NCBI RefSeq assembly: GCF_012530535.1
Contig: NZ_CP051299.1
Coordinates: forward strand, 1-64,000
Source of the DNA: Microcella flavibacter
GTDB lineage: Bacteria; Actinomycetota; Actinomycetes; Actinomycetales; Microbacteriaceae
DNA: 64,000 bases
Direction: 5' to 3'
Part shown: positions 24,515 through 36,055 of the stretch, in pieces
Numbering within the stretch: position 1 is the first letter of the stretch
How the letters are laid out: the number at the start of each line of letters is the position of its first letter
Notes under the pieces: model-generated
Seen by the model: only the letters and a program-made list of their open reading frames with translations
Database searches by the model: none
What the model was told of the DNA's origin: nothing
Position numbers and translations under genes: made by a program

Positions 24515-26179
24515 TCACGGTCGAACGTAGTGCGCGCCTCGGCGCTCTCCCCGCAGCTCGAGCTCGCCGGCATCGACCAGCCGGCGAAGGACCGCCCGCG
24601 CTTGCGGGGGGCTGAGTCGGCACAGCTCTGCTGCCTTCGAGCGCGTGATGGCGCCGAACTGCTCCACGTACGAGATCACCATCCGGTCCTGCTGCAGAGG
24701 ATCGGTGTCGCGAAGGCGCACGTACTCACTCGCTCGACTGGATCGGTAGAACGCCGCTGTCAGGTGGTATCGCCGGCTGCGGCCGTTCCCGCGCGGTTCC
24801 ACGATGCCGGCCTCGGACAAGCGGGTGAGTTCCTCCCGAATCCGTCCTTCCGGCAGGGCCAGGGCGCTATGGATCTCGGTGACGGTCGCATCATGCACGG
24901 CTTTGAGTTCGTGGAGTATCCGAAGGTGGGTGACCGACAACGGCGCGCCGTCAGCGTCATCGTGCTCGACGACGAACCGCACCATCTCGATATCGGCCGC
25001 ACTCGTCGGGATGGTGACGGACACGATCTTCTCGTTGGAGGCCGAGTAATCGGGCCCGTCCCTGCCGAGCCGAAGCAGTTGACCATAGATGTCGGGCACA
25101 CCACGCCCGTATCGGTCGACAAGACCTGCGCGCTTGAACGCCTCGGCGAGGATGACGCTTCTCGGTCGCGACTCGTCGAGGATGTTCGCCAGCGTGATGC
25201 CGGGAGGAAAGCCGCCAGGGCTGGACACTCTGAGCGCAGTCTCACTCAACTGCACCCGGATCGGGCCGAGCTCGGAGTAGTCCCGGTGGATGACGGCGTT
25301 GGATACGGCCTCGCGGACGACGCCGACGGGCAGTCGCGGAATACCGACGCGGTGAAGTCCGACCATCACCTCCTGCTCGGAGTTACGGACATCGAGAAGC
25401 TCCGCTATCCGCTGGACCGATGCGAGCAGGGGAGACAGCATCTGCTCGTTGAAGGAGAGGGCGCCTGCTCGCTCCTCCTGAAAGAGGATCTCTGCCGTCG
25501 GTACGTACTGGTGCAGGGCGTCAGCAGTGCCGAAGAGGAGGATCGCGCCCAGCGTCAGCTCGCCGGTCTCTGCGCGCAACAGTCGCAGTGCGCGGAGAAT
25601 CTCCTGGTCGCTGGACTCCGCGAGGCCGCGGTCTCCCTTGCCTGCGGCGCACAGTCGGCGAAACCGATCGAATTCGCGAGGGTCCAGGGCGGCCATCGAA
25701 GCGCCGCGTGCAGGAGCCTCGGCGTAGTCGCGTCCTTGCGCACTGAGACCGGCGGAGATGATCTCGTGCGGAAGGTAGGGCACGCATTCCGGCGCGCCGT
25801 CACTCCTGATCGACCGACGCTTGAACACACCGCCCTTGGTGCTCGTCGGACTCACCGCCTTCGGCACATCGATGACGATGACGTCCATCTCGTTGAGGCG
25901 CACGACCTCGACGAGGGTGGCGACGGGGGGTTCCGTCTTGTTGAGGATGTACGCGCTCAAGGATGCGGCATCGATGGGGGACCCTGAAGGCGACTCGGCT
26001 CCGCTGACCGTGCCATCGTCGTCGACCCCCAGGAGGAGGAATCCTCCGTCTGCGTTGGCGAGGCAAACGACGGCTTCGAAGATCGCCGAGTCGTCGAGCT
26101 GGCCCCTCTGGGCGCGCTTGAATTCGACGGTGAAGGTCTCACCGCCGTCGACGATGGACTGGAGCTCTTCCGGAGTCAT
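24515..26179 (-). CDS. AlbA_2/Schlafen-domain protein with GHKL-like and winged-helix domains
   Basis: A 554-residue protein of the type often mislabelled RecG-like helicase. The N-terminal AlbA_2 domain (about residues 1-140) shows TFTVEFKRAQ and AVVCLANADGGFLLLGVDDDG. The middle resembles the HATPase_c_4 region (EAVSNAVIHRDYSELGPIRV, then RVSSPGGFPPGIT). The C-terminus has two winged helices (VTEIHSALALPEGRIREEL and RSKAAELCRLSPPQARAVLRRL). Such proteins act as regulators or in phage defence and often neighbour type I restriction genes. It has its own AT-rich promoter region and lies downstream of hsdR. Whether it is an ATPase is not established; the GHKL glycine motif is incomplete. Confidence 0.8.
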   Translation of the reverse strand: MTPEELQSIVDGGETFTVEFKRAQRGQLDDSAIFEAVVCLANADGGFLLLGVDDDGTVSGAESPSGSPIDAASLSAYILNKTEPPVATLVEVVRLNEMDVIVIDVPKAVSPTSTKGGVFKRRSIRSDGAPECVPYLPHEIISAGLSAQGRDYAEAPARGASMAALDPREFDRFRRLCAAGKGDRGLAESSDQEILRALRLLRAETGELTLGAILLFGTADALHQYVPTAEILFQEERAGALSFNEQMLSPLLASVQRIAELLDVRNSEQEVMVGLHRVGIPRLPVGVVREAVSNAVIHRDYSELGPIRVQLSETALRVSSPGGFPPGITLANILDESRPRSVILAEAFKRAGLVDRYGRGVPDIYGQLLRLGRDGPDYSASNEKIVSVTIPTSAADIEMVRFVVEHDDADGAPLSVTHLRILHELKAVHDATVTEIHSALALPEGRIREELTRLSEAGIVEPRGNGRSRRYHLTAAFYRSSRASEYVRLRDTDPLQQDRMVISYVEQFGAITRSKAAELCRLSPPQARAVLRRLVDAGELELRGERRGAHYVRP

Positions 26180-26287: not shown

Positions 26288-29200
26288 TCACCGCTCCTCC
26301 GCGTACCGGGGCGCCATCGACTCCATCTGGTCCATGACGAGGCGGATCGCCTCCGGCTGCTTGTCCGGCGGATAGCCGTTCTTGACGAGCAGCCGCTTGA
26401 TGGATGCCCGCAGCTTCGCCCGCACGTCGTCGCGCACCGTCCAATCGGTGCGCACGTCGCGGCGCATCACCTCGACGAGGTCGCGCGCGATCTGGGCGAG
26501 CACGCCCTCGCCCTGCACCTGCACGGCCGATTCGTTCTGCGCGACCGCGTCGTAGAAGGCGAGCTCGTCGGAGTTCAGCGGCGGGGTGAACGACTCGCCC
26601 CGCGAGGCCTCGGTGCTGACCTCGTGCGCGAGTTCGACGAGCTGGGCGATGACCTCGGCCGAGGTGAGCTGCTGGTTCGTGTACTTCAGCATCAGCTCCC
26701 CGATGCGCTCGCTGAACGCCCGCTGGCGAACGACGTTGTTGCGCGCCGCGGTGGCCGACTCCTCGAGGAGCAGGGCGCGCAGCGCCTCGATCGCGAGCTG
26801 CGGGTTGGGCGACTGCTGCGCGGTGGCCACGAACGACGGGGTCAGGTCGGCGAGCGAGGGCTTGGGCATCCCGGCCGCGGTGTAGATGTCGACCACGTCG
26901 CGCGCCTCGGTCGACGTGTCGATGAGCGCCACCAGCAGGCGCTGCACCTCTTCGGGCACGGGTTCGCCGCGCGCCTGCCGATCGCGTGCGTCGTACTTGG
27001 CCATCCATACCCGCACCTCCTCGTAGAAGGCGATCTCGGGGCGCAGCGCCTCGACCTCCGGCGCCCGCGAGGTGAGCGCCCAGGCCCGTGCGAGCTGGCT
27101 CGACAGGCGGCGGTAGCGCGCTGCGAGGGTCTCGGGCCCGAGAGCGGGGTCGTTGGCGGGGCCGGGGGCGCGCAGGTGGTTGGTGGCTCCCGAGGCGGCG
27201 TTGAGGTAGGCCTTCGCGCCGCCGGCGTTCATGACGGCCTTCCAGTCGTAGCCGATCAGCAGTTCGCGCAGCCGGTCGATGAGCTCGAGGGTGAGCACGA
27301 CGGCCTCCTCGGTGCGCTTGCCGACGGGCTTCTCGTGCTGGTCGCGCACGGTGTACTCCGCGAGCGCCTTGGCGAGGTTGTCGACGAGCGGGGCGAAGGC
27401 CACCAGCAGCCCGTCGGCCTTGCCGCGGAAGGTGCGGTTGACGCGGGCGAGGGTCTGCATGAGCAGGGCGCCCTTGAGCGGGCGGTCGAGGTAGAGCGTG
27501 TGCAGCGGCGGTGCGTCGAAGCCGGTGAGCATCATGTCTTTCACGATGACGAGCTCGAGCTCGTCGTCCACGTCGCGCAGTCGGCTCTTGACGGTCTCGT
27601 TCTCGCTGGGCCGGCGCACGTGCTCGACGACGGGGGAGACGTCGGAGGGGGTGCCGGAGTAGACGACCTTGATGCGGCCACGGGCGAGGTCGTCGGAGTG
27701 CCAGCTGGGTTCGAGCTCGACGATCGCGTCGTAGAGGCGCGCGCAGATCTCGCGGGTGGCGCCGACGATGAGCGCCTTGCCCGGCCCCTCGATGAAGGGG
27801 CGCATGCGGGTGCGCCGCTCGTTCCAGTGGTCGACGATGTCGCGGGCGAGGGCGGCGATGCGCTCGGGGGCGCCGTACACGGCGTTGACGACGGCGACGG
27901 AGGCCTCGATGCGGGTGCGCTCGGCCTCGTCGAGCCCGAGGGTGGCCTCGTCGGCCGCCGTGTCGATGTCGTCGACGGTGACGCCGTCGGCGAGGGCGAC
28001 GGTGACGAGCCGCGGTTCGAAGTAGACGGGCACGGTGGCGCCGTCCTCGACCGCGCGGGTGAGGTCGTAGATGTCGATGTAGTCACCGAAGACCTCGCGG
28101 GTGTTGCGCTCGTCGAACGACACCGGCGTGCCGGTGAAGGCGATGAGGGTGGCGCGCGGCAGGGCGTCGCGCAGGTGCCGCGCGTAGCCGTCGAGGTCGT
28201 CGTAGTGGCTGCGATGCGCCTCGTCGACGATGACGATGATGTTGCGCCGGTCGCTGAGCAGGGGGTGGGCGGTGCCAGCCGCCTTCTCGGCGTCGGTGAG
28301 GCCGAACTTCTGCAGGGTGCTGAAGTAGATGCCTCCGGTGGTGCGGTTACCGAGCTCGTCGCGCAGCTCGCTGCGGCGCCGCACCTGCTGCGGCTTCTCG
28401 GGCAGCAGCAGGCTGCGTTCGAAGCCCTGGTAGAGCTGGCCGTCGAGCTCGGTGCGGTCGGTGATGACGACGATGGTCGGGTTGCGCAGCGCCGGGTGGC
28501 GGGCGACGAGGTTGGTGTAGAGCTCCATCTCCATCGACTTGCCGGAGCCCTGGGTGTGCCAGACGACTCCGGCCTTGCCGTTCGAGGCGACCGCCTGCAC
28601 GGTGCTGCCGACCGCGCGGCTCACGGCGAAGTACTGGTGCGGCTTGGCGATGCGCTTGGCGAGGGCACCGGCATCCGCATCGAAGGCGACGAAGTTGCGC
28701 ACCAGCTGCAGCATGCGCTCCTGGTTGTAGAGGCCGTAGAGGCTGTCTTCGAGCGCGGTGACGACGTCGCCGTCCTCGATACGGCCGCGCTCGACGGGGG
28801 CGCCGTCGTCGTCGACGTTCCACGGGGCGAAGTGGTTCAGCGGGGTGAAGGGGGTGCCGTAGAGCGTGTCCTCCGTGCCGTCGCTCGCGAGGGTGAAGGC
28901 GCAGAAGCGGAACGCGGTGGGGAACTCGCGCAGGTACGTCTGCAGCTGCGCGTGCGCGGCGGCGGCGCTGGTGCGCTCGGAGCCGGCCTTCTTCAGCTCG
29001 ATGATGCTCAGCGGCATGCCGTTGACGTAGAGCACGACGTCGAAGCGGCGGCTGTGCTCGCGGTCGCGCACGGTCACCTGGTTGACGGCGAGCCAGTCGT
29101 TCTCCTCGGGCAGGGCGCTGAGCACGCGCACGGTCGCATTGACCTCCTGCCCGTCGGCGTCGAGGTAGCTGAACCGGTATCCATCGGTGAGGATGCCGTG

Positions 29201-29461
29201 CACGCGGTGATTCTCGGTGATCGCGTCGGCGGATGCCGGGCTCGCGATCTCGGCCAGCGCCTGCTTGAGGTACTGCGCCGGCACGGCCGGGTTGAGACGC
29301 CGGAGCGCCTCGAGCAGCCGGGAGGGGATCAGCGGATCGGCCCACGACTCGCGCTGCCCGGAGCCGGGCGCGATCTGCTCACCCGTCGCGACCCGCCAGC
29401 CGAGCTCGCCGAGCGCCTCGAGCGTCAGGTTCTCCCAATCGGCCTCGCTGATGCCCGCCAT
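26288..29461 (-). CDS. hsdR: Type I restriction endonuclease subunit R
   Basis: HsdR moves DNA and cuts it in the R2M2S complex. From ATG 29461 the protein has 1057 residues, normal for the family. The nuclease PD-(D/E)xK site is Asp141 with Glu155-x-Lys157 (FDVVLYVNGMPLSIIELKK). The helicase core has Walker A WHTQGSGKSME (about residues 301-311) and the DEAH box IVDEAHRSHYD (413-416), followed by later helicase motifs and the C-terminal helical domain for HsdM binding. The ATG shares a base with the hsdS stop. An open frame extends 47 codons further into hsdS but has no support. All catalytic motifs look intact. Confidence 0.95.
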   Translation of the reverse strand: MAGISEADWENLTLEALGELGWRVATGEQIAPGSGQRESWADPLIPSRLLEALRRLNPAVPAQYLKQALAEIASPASADAITENHRVHGILTDGYRFSYLDADGQEVNATVRVLSALPEENDWLAVNQVTVRDREHSRRFDVVLYVNGMPLSIIELKKAGSERTSAAAAHAQLQTYLREFPTAFRFCAFTLASDGTEDTLYGTPFTPLNHFAPWNVDDDGAPVERGRIEDGDVVTALEDSLYGLYNQERMLQLVRNFVAFDADAGALAKRIAKPHQYFAVSRAVGSTVQAVASNGKAGVVWHTQGSGKSMEMELYTNLVARHPALRNPTIVVITDRTELDGQLYQGFERSLLLPEKPQQVRRRSELRDELGNRTTGGIYFSTLQKFGLTDAEKAAGTAHPLLSDRRNIIVIVDEAHRSHYDDLDGYARHLRDALPRATLIAFTGTPVSFDERNTREVFGDYIDIYDLTRAVEDGATVPVYFEPRLVTVALADGVTVDDIDTAADEATLGLDEAERTRIEASVAVVNAVYGAPERIAALARDIVDHWNERRTRMRPFIEGPGKALIVGATREICARLYDAIVELEPSWHSDDLARGRIKVVYSGTPSDVSPVVEHVRRPSENETVKSRLRDVDDELELVIVKDMMLTGFDAPPLHTLYLDRPLKGALLMQTLARVNRTFRGKADGLLVAFAPLVDNLAKALAEYTVRDQHEKPVGKRTEEAVVLTLELIDRLRELLIGYDWKAVMNAGGAKAYLNAASGATNHLRAPGPANDPALGPETLAARYRRLSSQLARAWALTSRAPEVEALRPEIAFYEEVRVWMAKYDARDRQARGEPVPEEVQRLLVALIDTSTEARDVVDIYTAAGMPKPSLADLTPSFVATAQQSPNPQLAIEALRALLLEESATAARNNVVRQRAFSERIGELMLKYTNQQLTSAEVIAQLVELAHEVSTEASRGESFTPPLNSDELAFYDAVAQNESAVQVQGEGVLAQIARDLVEVMRRDVRTDWTVRDDVRAKLRASIKRLLVKNGYPPDKQPEAIRLVMDQMESMAPRYAEER

Positions 29462-30683
29462 CAGAGCACCTCGCTCACGGCGCGCTCGGCGTCGCGGACG
29501 CGGAGCTTGCCGGACATAAGTTGCGGGAGGAGGGTGTCGCGGAGGGCGGCGAGTGCGTGGTTCTCCCTCATTCGTTCGAGGGAAGTGGCCAACTCGGCCC
29601 ATTTGCTGACCTCTCGGCGTTCCGCTTCTCGCAGCAATGGCACCTTCACTCCAGAGAGCAGTGCGGGAACGTCCAGGTTAGGCATTGCGGTGCCAGTACG
29701 GAAGCTTTGGAAATCCCCGGCATCCCAGGCGGCCAACATGGCGAACCACGCAGACGTTAGGTGTCTTTCTTGGCCGGGAAGAGCGACCAACCGCCGAACG
29801 AAATTGCTATACATAATTGGCAAATCGAAGCCCCTTCTGACCTCGGGCGTCACGAGCAAACTTGGCCCAAGTGAGCCAGAGCCCGCCGTCCAGATTTCGG
29901 TTGTCACACTTGCAATTCTTTTCCCAGCTTGGGCGAGGGAGACGAAACGCTCGGGAAGGTCCAACTGAGTGCCGGCCACGTAATCTTGCAGATCTCTACC
30001 TCGGAAGATGTGCACTTTTTCGGACAGTTTGGCAGAATAGTCCGCTTCGCCCCACACGCCTGAAAGGCCAGGTGCAACGACCTTCCGCAGCGGCACCTGC
30101 GCATTTCCGGCCAGCTTTAGGGCCCAGTTGGCTCGAGCGAAACGCAAAAGGTTCTTCTGAATTGCAACGTTCGCGGCGATCTTTTTGTCCAGTGCGTCCA
30201 ACACATCTGCAATCGCACGTTGCTCAACCAGCGACGGAGTGAGGTAGGAAAATGCTCCGATTGTGCGGCCGCTCAAATTTTGCTGCGCGGCTCCCGTAGC
30301 AAGTCCAACTGCGCGAGGGCGATCATTCAGAAGTGCATAAAAAAGCCATCGATAATCACAGACTTCTTCGTTTGCGATGAGTGCGCAAGAGGCTTGGTTG
30401 CATGCAGACGGTTCGGACAGAATGCCCAGGGCACCTACCGTCGCCCCATACATGGCCATGAGGACGGTGTTGGCTGGCAAAACTCGTGCGGCCGATTCTT
30501 GAACGGCTGCAGCGGTTATACGCTCCTCATACTCGGTCACGATGCCGTCTTTTAGCTCGCCAGTTTTGATCCACGGAATTGTTCCGTTCCGAAAGAATTC
30601 CGGCCGAGCGCGACTTGGCGTTCCGCCGCTTGTGACTTTTCGACATAGCTCGGAAACGCTCTTCATCTGCCAGGGCTCGTTAT

Positions 30684-30687
<4 letters not shown>
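29461..30687 (-). CDS. hsdS: Type I restriction-modification specificity subunit S
   Basis: HsdS decides which sequence the system methylates or cuts. The 408-residue protein has two target-recognition domains (about residues 1-160 and 205-370), each followed by a conserved helical spacer: LVEQRAIADVLDALDKKIAANVAIQKNLL in part, and REAERREVSKWAELATSLERMRENHALAALRD in part, then LLPQLMSGKLRVRDAE. Base use is unlike its neighbours: the line 30301-30360 has 27 G+C of 60, against 44 of 60 at 31021-31080 in hsdM. This suggests the recognition domains came from a lower-GC source. The ATG overlaps the hsdM stop by four bases. Confidence 0.94.
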
Positions 30688-32302
<1,615 letters not shown>

Positions 32303-32303
<1 letters not shown>

Positions 32304-34333
32304 CAGGGGGTTCCTCTCGTGGGGGGCGGTGCGTCGGGGGTGATGAGCTGAAGGGCGTCGCGGGCGAGGCCGTCGACGAGGGTGCGCTCGAGGTCGTCGA
32401 GACGGGCGAGGCGCTGCTGCGCCTCGGCCCGCTCGGCCTCGATCGCGTGCAGCACGGGGGTGAGGGCGGGCTTCTGCCGGGCATCCACCGATCGCAGCGG
32501 CCAGGCCCGCCACTCGATATCGGATGCTGCGCGCGCGCCGATGTCGGCGACGAGCGCCTCGGGCACGAGCTCGGCGTCGCCCTCGCCGGTGATGCGCAGC
32601 ACGCGGGCCGGAGCCAGCACCACCGCGAAGCCCTCGCGGTCGATCAGGGCCGCGGGCCGCGGCGAGGTGATGAAGACCACGTCGCCCGGCTCCGTGAACC
32701 GGGCGGAGGGGAACTCGGCCGCGACCCGGAGGCGGTCGACCGATCGCGTGCCGAGGCGGCTCGCATCGAGCACCTCGTCGGTGCCGATCACGGGCATGCG
32801 ACCGGAGTCGGCCGCGCGAGCCTCGACGATCGAGCCGAGCCGCGTGCCCGGCAGGCGGCGCAGGTGGCGGGCCGCGATGCGCTCGCCCACCGTCGACAGG
32901 CGCACGGGGGCGGCGCGGTCGGCGGATCGCGGGACCGGTCGATGCGGCAGGGGCAGGTCGAGCGCACCCGCGAGCTCCTCCACTCTCACGGCGAGCTCTG
33001 CCGGCGTGCGGCGAATGGGGCGCAGGGGCGAGCCGTTGTCGGAGCCCGCGACGAGCGACTCGGTGCTCGCGAGAAGTCGACGGGTAGGGGTCGGTCGCAC
33101 GAACCGGAAGGCGTGTGCCCGCAGTTCGGCGAGGCCACCGAGTGCGAAGGCCAGGTCGTTCGAGAGGTCGGCCTCGGCCGCCGGCTGCGTCAGGCCGGTC
33201 GAGAGGTCGGCGGTCATGATCCAGCGGTCGGCGAGCTCGACCCCGGTCGGGGCTGCACCGATCACCCAGAGGGCGAGATGTTGTCGAGGGGCCGTCGGGC
33301 GAAGGCCGCGGGGCAGGCGCACGATCGCCCGGACCCGCCCGGTGCGCAGCAGCCCCGCACGGATGCCATCGGGTTCCCGCGGGAGCGCGCCGTCGCAGAG
33401 CACCGACGCAGGGCCGACGACGACGGCCGTACCGGTCGGTGAAAGTCGCATCACCGCGTCGTCGAGCAGCGCCAGCTGATCGGTGAGGCCTGGCCTGCCG
33501 CGGGGAGCGCCCAGGACGAGAACCAGTAGTTCAGGTCGATCGGCGTGGAGCGCCGCACGGCTGTCGGGGACGACGTGAACGCCATGCACCCGCAGTCGAC
33601 GGCGAGCCAGGCGCGCGGTAGCGAGCTGCTCGGTCGTCGACCCGGCGTGGCCGATGAGGGCGACCTGGTCGTCGGCTTCGGCGACGGCCGCCGCGCGGAC
33701 GAGGATGTCGGCGGCTGCTCCCGACTGGTCGACCAGCAGCGGCGGGGAATCCGCGTGATCGACCCGGAGGCGCGACGAGACCGCGCGGACGATCGCGGCC
33801 CCGATCGCGGCCGCTGCGGGAGAGAGGCCCTTCGTGCCCGGACCCTCGCGAGTCGCGACCGCCCGCTCCATCGCGGCACTCTCCCCGAAAGACGCGTCGA
33901 CGAGCCCGTCGACGTAGCGCGCGAGATCAGCGTGCGCGCTGATCGCCTCGGTCTCGGTGAACAGGAAGTCGTCATCCGGGTCGGCGGCGTCCGCCGCGTC
34001 GAGCAGGGCGTCACGGGAGAGACCCGCGAGGGGCCGGCCCACCGCTGCCCGCAGTGCGATGAGCGCCGTCACACTGTCGGCGCTCGCCTGTGCCGGAACG
34101 TCGCGATGGGCGCCGAGGTCGGCGGACGCAGAACGATTGTTGCCGCGGCCCGTCGACTCGAGCCACTGCACGACGTCGTCCGCCGAGAAGCGCATCGTGC
34201 CGCCGTCGGCATCGACCGGCGCCGGGAACGGGAACGCCGAACCCTCGGATCGCGTCCTCCACACGGTCACGACGGGGCGCTCCACGCGGGCGAGCTGCGC
34301 GATCTGACTCATGGAGAGGAGCGCGGATGACAC
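32303..34333 (-). CDS. HTH, degenerate HsdM-like and HsdS-like fusion protein heading the hsd operon
   Basis: A 676-residue protein without an obvious catalytic role. Residues about 5-60 form a MerR/excisionase-like helix-turn-helix (MSQIAQLARVERPVVTVWRTR, partly, then MRFSADDVVQWLESTGRGN). Residues about 195-360 follow the HsdM fold but lack its active site: the AdoMet motif slot reads VDQSGAAADILV, the NPPF slot reads VLGAPRGRPG, while the later block RTGRVRAIVRLPRGL and HLALWVI is kept. Residues about 495-655 look like half an HsdS (GDVVFITSPRPA, then a coiled coil ending RTLVDGLARDAL). GTG start with AAGGAGAGGAG upstream; the stop is coupled to hsdM. It could be an operon regulator or a structural partner. 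Confidence 0.75.
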
Positions 34334-34383
34334 GGGCGGGCTCCTCTCCTTGTTGCGGCTTGCTGGTGCGGGTGAGTGCACGG

Positions 34384-34422
34384 TATCGCGTGGGTGAGGC
34401 ATTCGCCAGCAATCACGCGATA
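34384..34422. promoter_or_regulatory. Inverted repeat at the hsd operon promoter
   Basis: TATCGCGTG (34384-34392) and CACGCGATA (34414-34422) are perfect 9-bp arms, 21 bases apart, 51 bases before the GTG of the first hsd-operon gene. Read on the minus strand, a possible -35 (TTGCTG) lies between the arms 17 bases from GCGATA, the -10 region, so the repeat overlaps the promoter. The helix-turn-helix of the first gene product is a candidate ligand. Confidence 0.5.
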
Positions 34423-34529
34423 AGGGGGCTAATCACCTTGATGTTGCTGATGACACCGGCGGCTCTTCTAGCGTCGGCCTCTGCACCATTCCGCAGTCAC
34501 TCACTCGCATTCCCCACCTGGAGGACCCC

Positions 34530-35537
34530 ATGACCCACCCCGCCCCGCAAGCGACGGCGACCGATACCGGTCGACCTGCCGCCCGATCGTTCGTCATCAC
34601 GTGGCTGCTCGCGCTGCTGCTCGGCGCGGTCGGGGCTGATCGCTTCTACCTCGGCAAGATCGGTACCGGGCTTCTGAAACTGCTCACGTTCGGCGGCCTC
34701 GGCATCTGGGCTCTCGTCGACCTCATCCTGGTGCTCACCGGCAACCAGCGCGACAAGCAGAACCGGCCCCTCGAGGGCTACCGCGAGCGGCGGACACTGG
34801 CCTGGGCGGTGACCGGGGCCTTCCTGCTGATCGCCATCATCATCGGCGCTACCACGGGCGGCGGCAGAGACACCGATCCCGTGCCGGCCGCGGCACCTGC
34901 GACCGCGGAGGCGGAGCCGGTCGAGGAGCCGGAGGTGAGCGAGCCCGAGCCCGACCCGGCCCCCGAGCCGGCGGAACCGACAGTGCAGGACTGGGCGGAC
35001 GACAACTTCGGCGTATTCGATCCCATCACCCAGAGCGGCGCCGGCGACAGCATCATCGCCCTTCCCGCCGGAGTCACCGCGGGCGTCGTCACTGCCAGCC
35101 ATGACGGCGCGCGCAACTTCGTCCTCTCCGTGCTCGATGCCGGCAATCAGTCGACGGGCGATCTGCTCGTCAACACGATCGGCGCGTACACCGGCACCAC
35201 GGCCTACGGGCTCGCCTCGTTCGGCGAGGGCACCAGCATCCAGATCACGGCGGACGGATCGTGGTCGATCACGATCGCTCCGATGTCGGCCGCAGCGCCG
35301 ATCCCGGCAGCCGGCAGCGGGGACGGGGTGTTCCTGTACGAGGGCCCGGCGGGTGCCCTGGCGCTCACGCACGCCGGCGAGCGCAACTTCGTCGTGATCC
35401 AGGATTCGGCCCGGGACTTCGAGTTCGGTCTGCTCGTCAACGACATCGGGCCGTACACCGGCACGGTGCCGATGATGAGCGGCCCGTCGGTGATCACGAT
35501 CACCGCTGACGGCGCCTGGACGGCGGTCACCCCGTGA
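34530..35537 (+). CDS. TM2-domain membrane protein with two copies of an extracellular module
   Basis: The 335-residue protein begins with a TM2 domain (about residues 22-75): two membrane helices with GAVGADRFYLGKIGTGLLKL between them. A third helix (LAWAVTGAFLLIAIIIGATTG) and a Pro/Glu-rich linker lead to an outer region with two related units of about 70 residues. Unit one has the signatures GARNFVLSVLD, LLVNTIGAYTGT and ITADGSWSI; unit two has GERNFVVIQD, LLVNDIGPYTGT and ITADGAWTA. Internal duplication is clear. The role is unknown; the units resemble small beta-sandwich domains. GGAGGACC precedes the ATG. The next gene overlaps its stop. Confidence 0.85.
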   Translation: MTHPAPQATATDTGRPAARSFVITWLLALLLGAVGADRFYLGKIGTGLLKLLTFGGLGIWALVDLILVLTGNQRDKQNRPLEGYRERRTLAWAVTGAFLLIAIIIGATTGGGRDTDPVPAAAPATAEAEPVEEPEVSEPEPDPAPEPAEPTVQDWADDNFGVFDPITQSGAGDSIIALPAGVTAGVVTASHDGARNFVLSVLDAGNQSTGDLLVNTIGAYTGTTAYGLASFGEGTSIQITADGSWSITIAPMSAAAPIPAAGSGDGVFLYEGPAGALALTHAGERNFVVIQDSARDFEFGLLVNDIGPYTGTVPMMSGPSVITITADGAWTAVTP

Positions 35538-36055
35538 GCGGCGAACAGCACCCGGCCGGCTCCTCGCCCGAGAGTCCGTCCATCCCGGCCGGCCGGAGGG
35601 CGGCTGCGTCGCAGCGGACCATGATTATGGTCGCCAGTGCCCTCGCGGCTGCCGCGCTCGTCGGCATCATCGTTGTGGCGATCGCGGTCATGAGCGGAGG
35701 ATCGAAAGGTGACGAAGGTGAAGCCGCTGGGCCTGCCGCCGAGACGGCTCCCTCGCTGACCGTGCTCGAACAGGCCGTGCGCTCGTGCGCTCTCTCGACC
35801 ACCGACTCGGTCGTCGTGGGCGACGAGGGAATGACGGTCACTGTCGACGGTCGCGGGGACGAGGACCCGGACGGAGCATCGATCTCCGACACGTTCTGCC
35901 TGCTCGACGCCACTGAGGTCTCCACCGCGGCGATGGCGCAGATCGAGGGGACCACTTCGCTTCAAGGACGGCAGTCGGCCAGTTGGGGCGGTGTGGACGC
36001 GAGCTGGACGTACCATCCGGATAACGGGCTCGATCTCATCCTGACCGAACGGTGA
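35534..36055 (+). CDS. Single-pass membrane protein of unknown function
   Basis: I do not recognise the family. The 173-residue product has a polar N-terminus, one membrane helix (MVASALAAAALVGIIVVAIAVM, about residues 31-53, split here) and an outer domain with two cysteines (SCALSTTDS and DTFCLLD) that may form a disulfide. The GTG overlaps the stop of the TM2 gene by four bases, so the two are probably made together and may act together at the membrane. About 125 bases without a gene follow. Confidence 0.7.
   Translation: MSGEQHPAGSSPESPSIPAGRRAAASQRTMIMVASALAAAALVGIIVVAIAVMSGGSKGDEGEAAGPAAETAPSLTVLEQAVRSCALSTTDSVVVGDEGMTVTVDGRGDEDPDGASISDTFCLLDATEVSTAAMAQIEGTTSLQGRQSASWGGVDASWTYHPDNGLDLILTER

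Follow-up and report, generated by a model that had tools for sequence, protein, structure and literature searches.

Gene X and its operon

The window, by which we mean the whole 64,000-nucleotide stretch of DNA analysed here (positions 1 to 64,000 of contig NZ_CP051299.1 of Microcella flavibacter), carries a type I restriction operon on its reverse strand, preceded by a gene that we call X (32303..34333). Gene X runs from a GTG start codon at 34333 to a TGA stop at 32305-32303 and encodes a protein of 676 aa. Its stop shares an A with the ATG of hsdM (30684..32303), the two reading together as TGATG. The start of hsdS (29461..30687) overlaps the hsdM stop, and hsdR (26288..29461) was taken to begin with the ATG that overlaps the stop codon of hsdS. 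The final gene of the probable operon, also on the reverse strand, is an SLFN_AlbA_2 gene (24515..26179); genes of this kind vary in position, lying either after hsdR or between hsdS and hsdR (window; L008, 12506-14269). On the forward strand, facing X, are a divergent gene (34530..35537, type W, membrane-protein-like by eye) and a second one (35534..36055, type V).

The X product joins three parts, all encoded on the reverse strand: an N-terminal helix-turn-helix (HTH) region (residues 1-66, 34136..34333), an HsdM-like fold lacking the catalytic motifs (residues 77-433, 33035..34105) with a relic of methyltransferase motif I (residues 199-211, 33701..33739), and a half HsdS made of a TRD and a long C-terminal helix (residues 476-666, 32336..32908). 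Both this composition and the overlap of the X stop with the hsdM start had been reported in the preliminary description and are confirmed here. Within the X family the HTH has the highest mean pairwise identity of all parts (0.53, versus 0.40 for the TRD). A longer reading frame starting from an ATG at 34402 was considered and is disfavoured, because the predicted promoter (see below) would place the start of transcription downstream of that codon.

A methyltransferase fold without catalytic motifs

The AdoMet motif I DPxCG is absent from X, where motif I is degenerate, and the segment following motif IV is deleted. Across 106 X homologues (103 proteins distinct at 99%), NPPY or NPPF was found in none within the region aligned to residues 150-330; motif IV is lost in 105, and the single exception has SPPW. 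The HsdM proteins of X loci have both motifs intact in 82 of 82 cases (DPxxGxG and NPPF/Y), as does that of the window (DPCCGSG and NPPF). Here and below, some of the loci counted are related to one another, and one contig appears twice, as L007 and as L074.

A comparison covering the families on the VIA-align list shows an HsdM fold in X. By sequence the relation to HsdM was found through an intermediate family: X scores 11.3 bits against HsdM / N6_Mtase (PF02384), below the Pfam cut-off of 20.4, and a direct profile comparison with HsdM, for which the HsdM set used was very uniform, gave a probability of 1.5%. X is, however, co-linear in all three parts with a family of solitary HTH-N6_Mtase-half-HsdS proteins (HHalign 99.9%, E 4.6e-33, 608 columns, covering columns 7-676; HsdR control, 0.1%). 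Searches with X returned no match in the PDB sequences up to E 10 and none in NCBIfam, and scans of IMG/VR with X and with A2 yielded no relatives.

These solitary proteins, for which we know of no published name, share the architecture of X over its whole length (examples are L128 from Nocardia, L132 from Pseudofrankia, L130, L137-L141 and L159). Unlike X, they mostly retain an intact motif I and carry NPPY, NPPF, HPPF, HPPY or DPPW as motif IV, besides worn forms. In the four loci examined over a longer stretch (L128, L130, L131, L132), they have no hsdM as a neighbour. By its sequence X descends from a solitary HTH-N6-methylase-half-HsdS enzyme and has lost the catalytic motifs. The earlier view of X as a pseudo-methyltransferase with an HsdM-like fold is borne out by the motif counts, the fold comparison and this whole-length homology to a methylase family; neither a homologue with NPPY/NPPF in the aligned region nor a fold unrelated to HsdM, either of which would have spoken against it, was found. 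In L137-L141 and L159, motif IV is altered (four HPPF/HPPY, one YPPT and one DPPA), and these solitary proteins are possibly regulators too.

A conserved palindrome upstream of X

Two 7-mers stand out in the 300 bases upstream of 86 X genes, GATAACC (in 65) and CTGATAA (in 61), compared with about 1.5 in shuffled sequences. Together they form one palindrome, GATAA-N6-TTATC, with the extended consensus CTGATAA-S6-TTATCAG (also written CTGATAA-N6-TTATCAG). Its core is exact upstream of 78 of the 86 genes, has one mismatch in seven, the window included, and is absent in L085; spacers of 2-5 and 7-12 bases between GATAA and TTATC gave no exact match in any of the 86. Among 78 of these upstream regions that are at most 90% alike, 71 have the exact core and six have it with one mismatch. 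With further loci added, and up to two core mismatches allowed, this putative operator is found at 105 of 106 X genes. In the window it occupies 34417..34436 and reads GC GATAA GGGGGC TAATC AC on the forward strand, the one core mismatch lying in one arm. CTAATC, a first guess at the motif, was not borne out.

The 80 scanned loci, 1.585 Mb in total, contain 82 exact sites. Of these, 75 precede X (in L030 and L047 the copy of X is broken or partial) and seven lie elsewhere. Four of the latter lie ~71-121 bp before detached genes, namely hsdR in L035, L051 and L056 and hsdM in L086. A site precedes detached hsdM or hsdR genes in six of 12 cases altogether, four exact and two with a mismatch. Where hsdR lies more than 2.4 kb beyond hsdS (11 loci), it is preceded by an exact site in three, by a one-mismatch site in two and by none in six; where the distance is ~0.8-2.2 kb (19 loci), no site was found before hsdR. 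L086 holds two near-identical operator-promoter copies (16041 and 18617), one before hsdM and the other 2.6 kb upstream.

The palindrome is accompanied by predicted promoters at a fixed distance. A TAnnnT -10 element occurs on the X side at an offset of 46-51 from the operator, mostly 48-50, in 79 of 85 loci (shuffles: mean 5.4, maximum 12), and a mirror-image element is present on the divergent side in 48 of 85, with an offset peak at 50. In the window these are the predicted -10 TACCGT of the X-hsd promoter (34380..34385, reverse strand, offset 49) and TAGCGT of the divergent promoter (34469..34474, forward strand, offset 50). No conserved -35 was found. Most loci in a sample of the order have the same layout of operator and -10. 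At detached hsd genes, inspection by eye shows TAnnnT at 49-51 for four of the six sites, L051 and L056 being the two without it.

Linkage to hsdM and distribution

A scan of one genome per species returned 137 relatives, of which 80 were kept (L016-L095). In 75 of these, hsdM follows X directly on the same strand, at a distance, measured by profile match, ranging from a 16-base overlap to 104 bases. In the remainder the contig ends at X (L048, L074), X is truncated with no hsdM following (L028, L046), or hsdM lies 6.9 kb away (L086); none of the 80 loci showed an intact free-standing X. The tight coupling to hsdM proposed from the window therefore extends to the family.

All 80 loci are labelled as Actinomycetota or actinobacterial genera except L050 (Sporosarcina), whose G+C content of 64% suggests a mislabelled or contaminated record. 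X is also present in five plasmid records and in one record labelled bacteriophage, MT835479 (L015); the latter carries X-hsdM-hsdS-hsdR and probably represents an island of bacterial origin within a fecal assembly. An even sample of the order (347 genomes, 105 genera) has the candidate regulator in 26 genera. Thirty HsdM loci in these genomes are at least 60% identical to the HsdM of the window, and a pairwise search that scored only top candidates placed X beside 28 of them. A profile search added one more (G358) and left G616 as the sole X-less HsdM of the clade; the separation of X and hsdM is ~0.45 kb in G510 and ~0.75 kb in G358. Upstream of 15 HsdM loci at 51-56% identity, a profile search detected no X within ~4 kb (2.5 kb in one, where the contig ends). 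X thus belongs with a single HsdM clade. Within 99 near relatives, a full X is present in only two others, two further rows being short partial matches, and the island is therefore patchily distributed.

A candidate regulator of a type I restriction operon

We suggest that X is very probably a dedicated pseudo-enzyme transcription regulator of its own type I restriction operon, because nearly all of the relatives examined have the same palindrome just upstream. A DNA-binding controller, suggested to sense assembly of the complex, was one of two roles put forward in the preliminary description; the controller role now gains support from the conserved operator, which was absent from that account. 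We infer that X, as a dimer, would bind CTGATAA-N6-TTATCAG between the X-hsd and divergent promoters. Bound X would set the expression of X-hsdM-hsdS-hsdR and would also control those detached hsdM or hsdR genes that have the same site. A likely benefit would be that restriction is postponed or adjusted after transfer of the island to another cell. Counting against regulation by X are L085, where X lacks a site, the six of 11 loci in which a distant hsdR has none before it, the two sites at detached genes that lack the -10 at 49-51, and the mismatch in the operator of the window itself.

As for the direction of control, activation is slightly favoured, ahead of repression or a dual switch like that of C proteins, since the spacing is fixed, the expected transcription start would lie ~52 bases downstream of the operator centre, and a conserved -35 is lacking. 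In these bacteria -35 elements are perhaps usually weak, which weakens the argument. C proteins at their upstream site offer a parallel for activation (PMC12707154).

The palindrome may be read either by the HTH, which is the most conserved part, or by the TRD, as a half-HsdS dimer fits the spacing. Such a dimer should read a palindrome interrupted by six bases. A tentative extension, which we think rather unlikely, is that the operator was once the target recognised by the ancestral enzyme, in which case TGATAA-N6-TTATCA would still be read by a dimer of half-HsdS TRDs in the manner of a type I methylase, methylation would have been lost, and the HTH would contact DNA or polymerase. A comparison of operator variants with X residues by mutual information, which phylogeny confounds, singled out no domain. 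On the tentative extension above, an entire methylase-specificity chain of type I would have become a transcription factor that, from one central site, drives both its own restriction operon and a divergent envelope-protein gene.

The second role suggested earlier was that of a dead subunit entering the M2S complex and altering its specificity or activity. The HsdM fold, the half HsdS and the tight coupling to hsdM would all suit such a subunit; we nevertheless consider it improbable, as an operator before X and some detached hsd genes is unexpected for a mere subunit. Exchange of specificity in particular is disfavoured because the TRD of X is conserved while the HsdS TRDs of the same operons diverge (mean identity 0.69 versus 0.20-0.22 in 18 close loci, picked by identity). 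It is possible that X has a double role as subunit and regulator.

It is quite improbable that a different regulator, encoded by the host, recognises the palindrome and that X serves the operon in some other way. In favour of such a host factor, the binding of X to the palindrome is something we infer, a factor present only alongside X could bind the site, and the operator sequence also turns up where X does not: of the order genomes, 24 of the 29 with X contain an exact site, as do 65 of the 318 that lack X, about twice the 33 of 318 that contain a reversed control pattern. The genome of the window has five sites with at most one mismatch, one of them at X. Against this, the site adjoins X in nearly all loci, and among 96 near relatives that have no full X, just 12 contain an exact site anywhere. 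It is also missing beside sixteen related hsdM genes that lack X: no site with at most one mismatch was found in 16 kb around the HsdM of G616, nor upstream of the 15 X-less HsdM at 51-56% identity. Ten loci of HTH-N6 relatives likewise contain no site at up to that number of mismatches. That X still works as a methyltransferase, with unusual motifs, is highly improbable; the motif I relics, the HPPF and DPPW variants of the related family and the one SPPW are outweighed by the loss of motif IV in all X but that one, the deletion after it and the degeneration of motif I.

Comparison with known systems

The preliminary claim that no control layer on a type I system has been described was wrong: HsdC and RptR are both known, and neither, as far as the cited accounts describe them, is a pseudo-methyltransferase. 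HsdC of Mycoplasma gallisepticum, a regulator of a type I hsd operon (PMC5282649), is an HTH controller encoded in the operon, as X would be, and it attaches to conserved repeats in the promoter of that operon, where X has a conserved putative operator. In the portions of that report cited here, HsdC differs in being a small C-protein homologue that uses direct repeats, (GTGTTAN5)2, and has no methyltransferase-like part. RptR, a type I regulator with 54 of 117 homologues linked to type I systems (PMC12255303), is like X encoded at the head of a type I island and has palindromic sites in the promoter. It is unlike X in being a small helical homodimer with TAGCTA sites, a proven repressor and described across Gammaproteobacteria. 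X thus has in common with restriction controllers that it is encoded with and before its presumed target genes and has a conserved operator at its own promoter; with 676 aa in three parts, it is not a mere HTH as the small controllers are.

M.SsoII, an HTH-methyltransferase that represses its own gene (PMC3978073), offers the other parallel. M.SsoII and M.Ecl18kI have an N-terminal HTH on a DNA methyltransferase, as in X, and are described in the sections cited as controlling, through a site in the promoter, the restriction system to which they belong (PMC3978073, PMC3874152). In X, the sequence shows the fusion of an HTH to a methyltransferase fold and a conserved putative operator, and X may act on its own system in a comparable way. 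These proteins, however, are active m5C methyltransferases of type II systems, whereas X has lost its motifs and is of type I descent. X would therefore join the role of HsdC and RptR as type I regulators with the HTH-methyltransferase form of M.SsoII, in a type I chain devoid of motifs. In the open-access literature we found no description of a regulator built from a dead type I M-S chain; what proved relevant there concerned HsdC, RptR and SsoII-type proteins, besides reviews. What appears to be new here is the operator palindrome, the fixed -10 spacing and the dead M-S chain as a candidate type I regulator. X would be a clear example of a pseudo-enzyme that has probably become the regulator of the enzyme class from which it came, and the question is directly testable with the putative operator and predicted promoters already located. 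The operator can also serve to trace the regulon, among whose members there may be membrane-protein genes not yet linked to restriction systems.

Genes on the divergent side

Divergent genes face the operator in many loci (for example L010, L011, L037, L038, L041 and L068) and may be part of the island. A coiled-coil, membrane-protein-like gene (type U) lies within 2.7 kb in 46 of 87 loci, 38 of these matches being strong. Type W genes occupy the divergent position in the window, L015, L039, L067 and L077, and another family of ~480 aa (by eye) does so in L008, L060, L064, L073, L083, L084, L089 and L093. In Cryobacterium loci, C-termini resembling type V by eye adjoin X. Elsewhere in the genome of the window (C1:519000-533000, L134) lies another type I system that includes a pair of hsdM-like genes, the first with NPPY and the second with NPKW.
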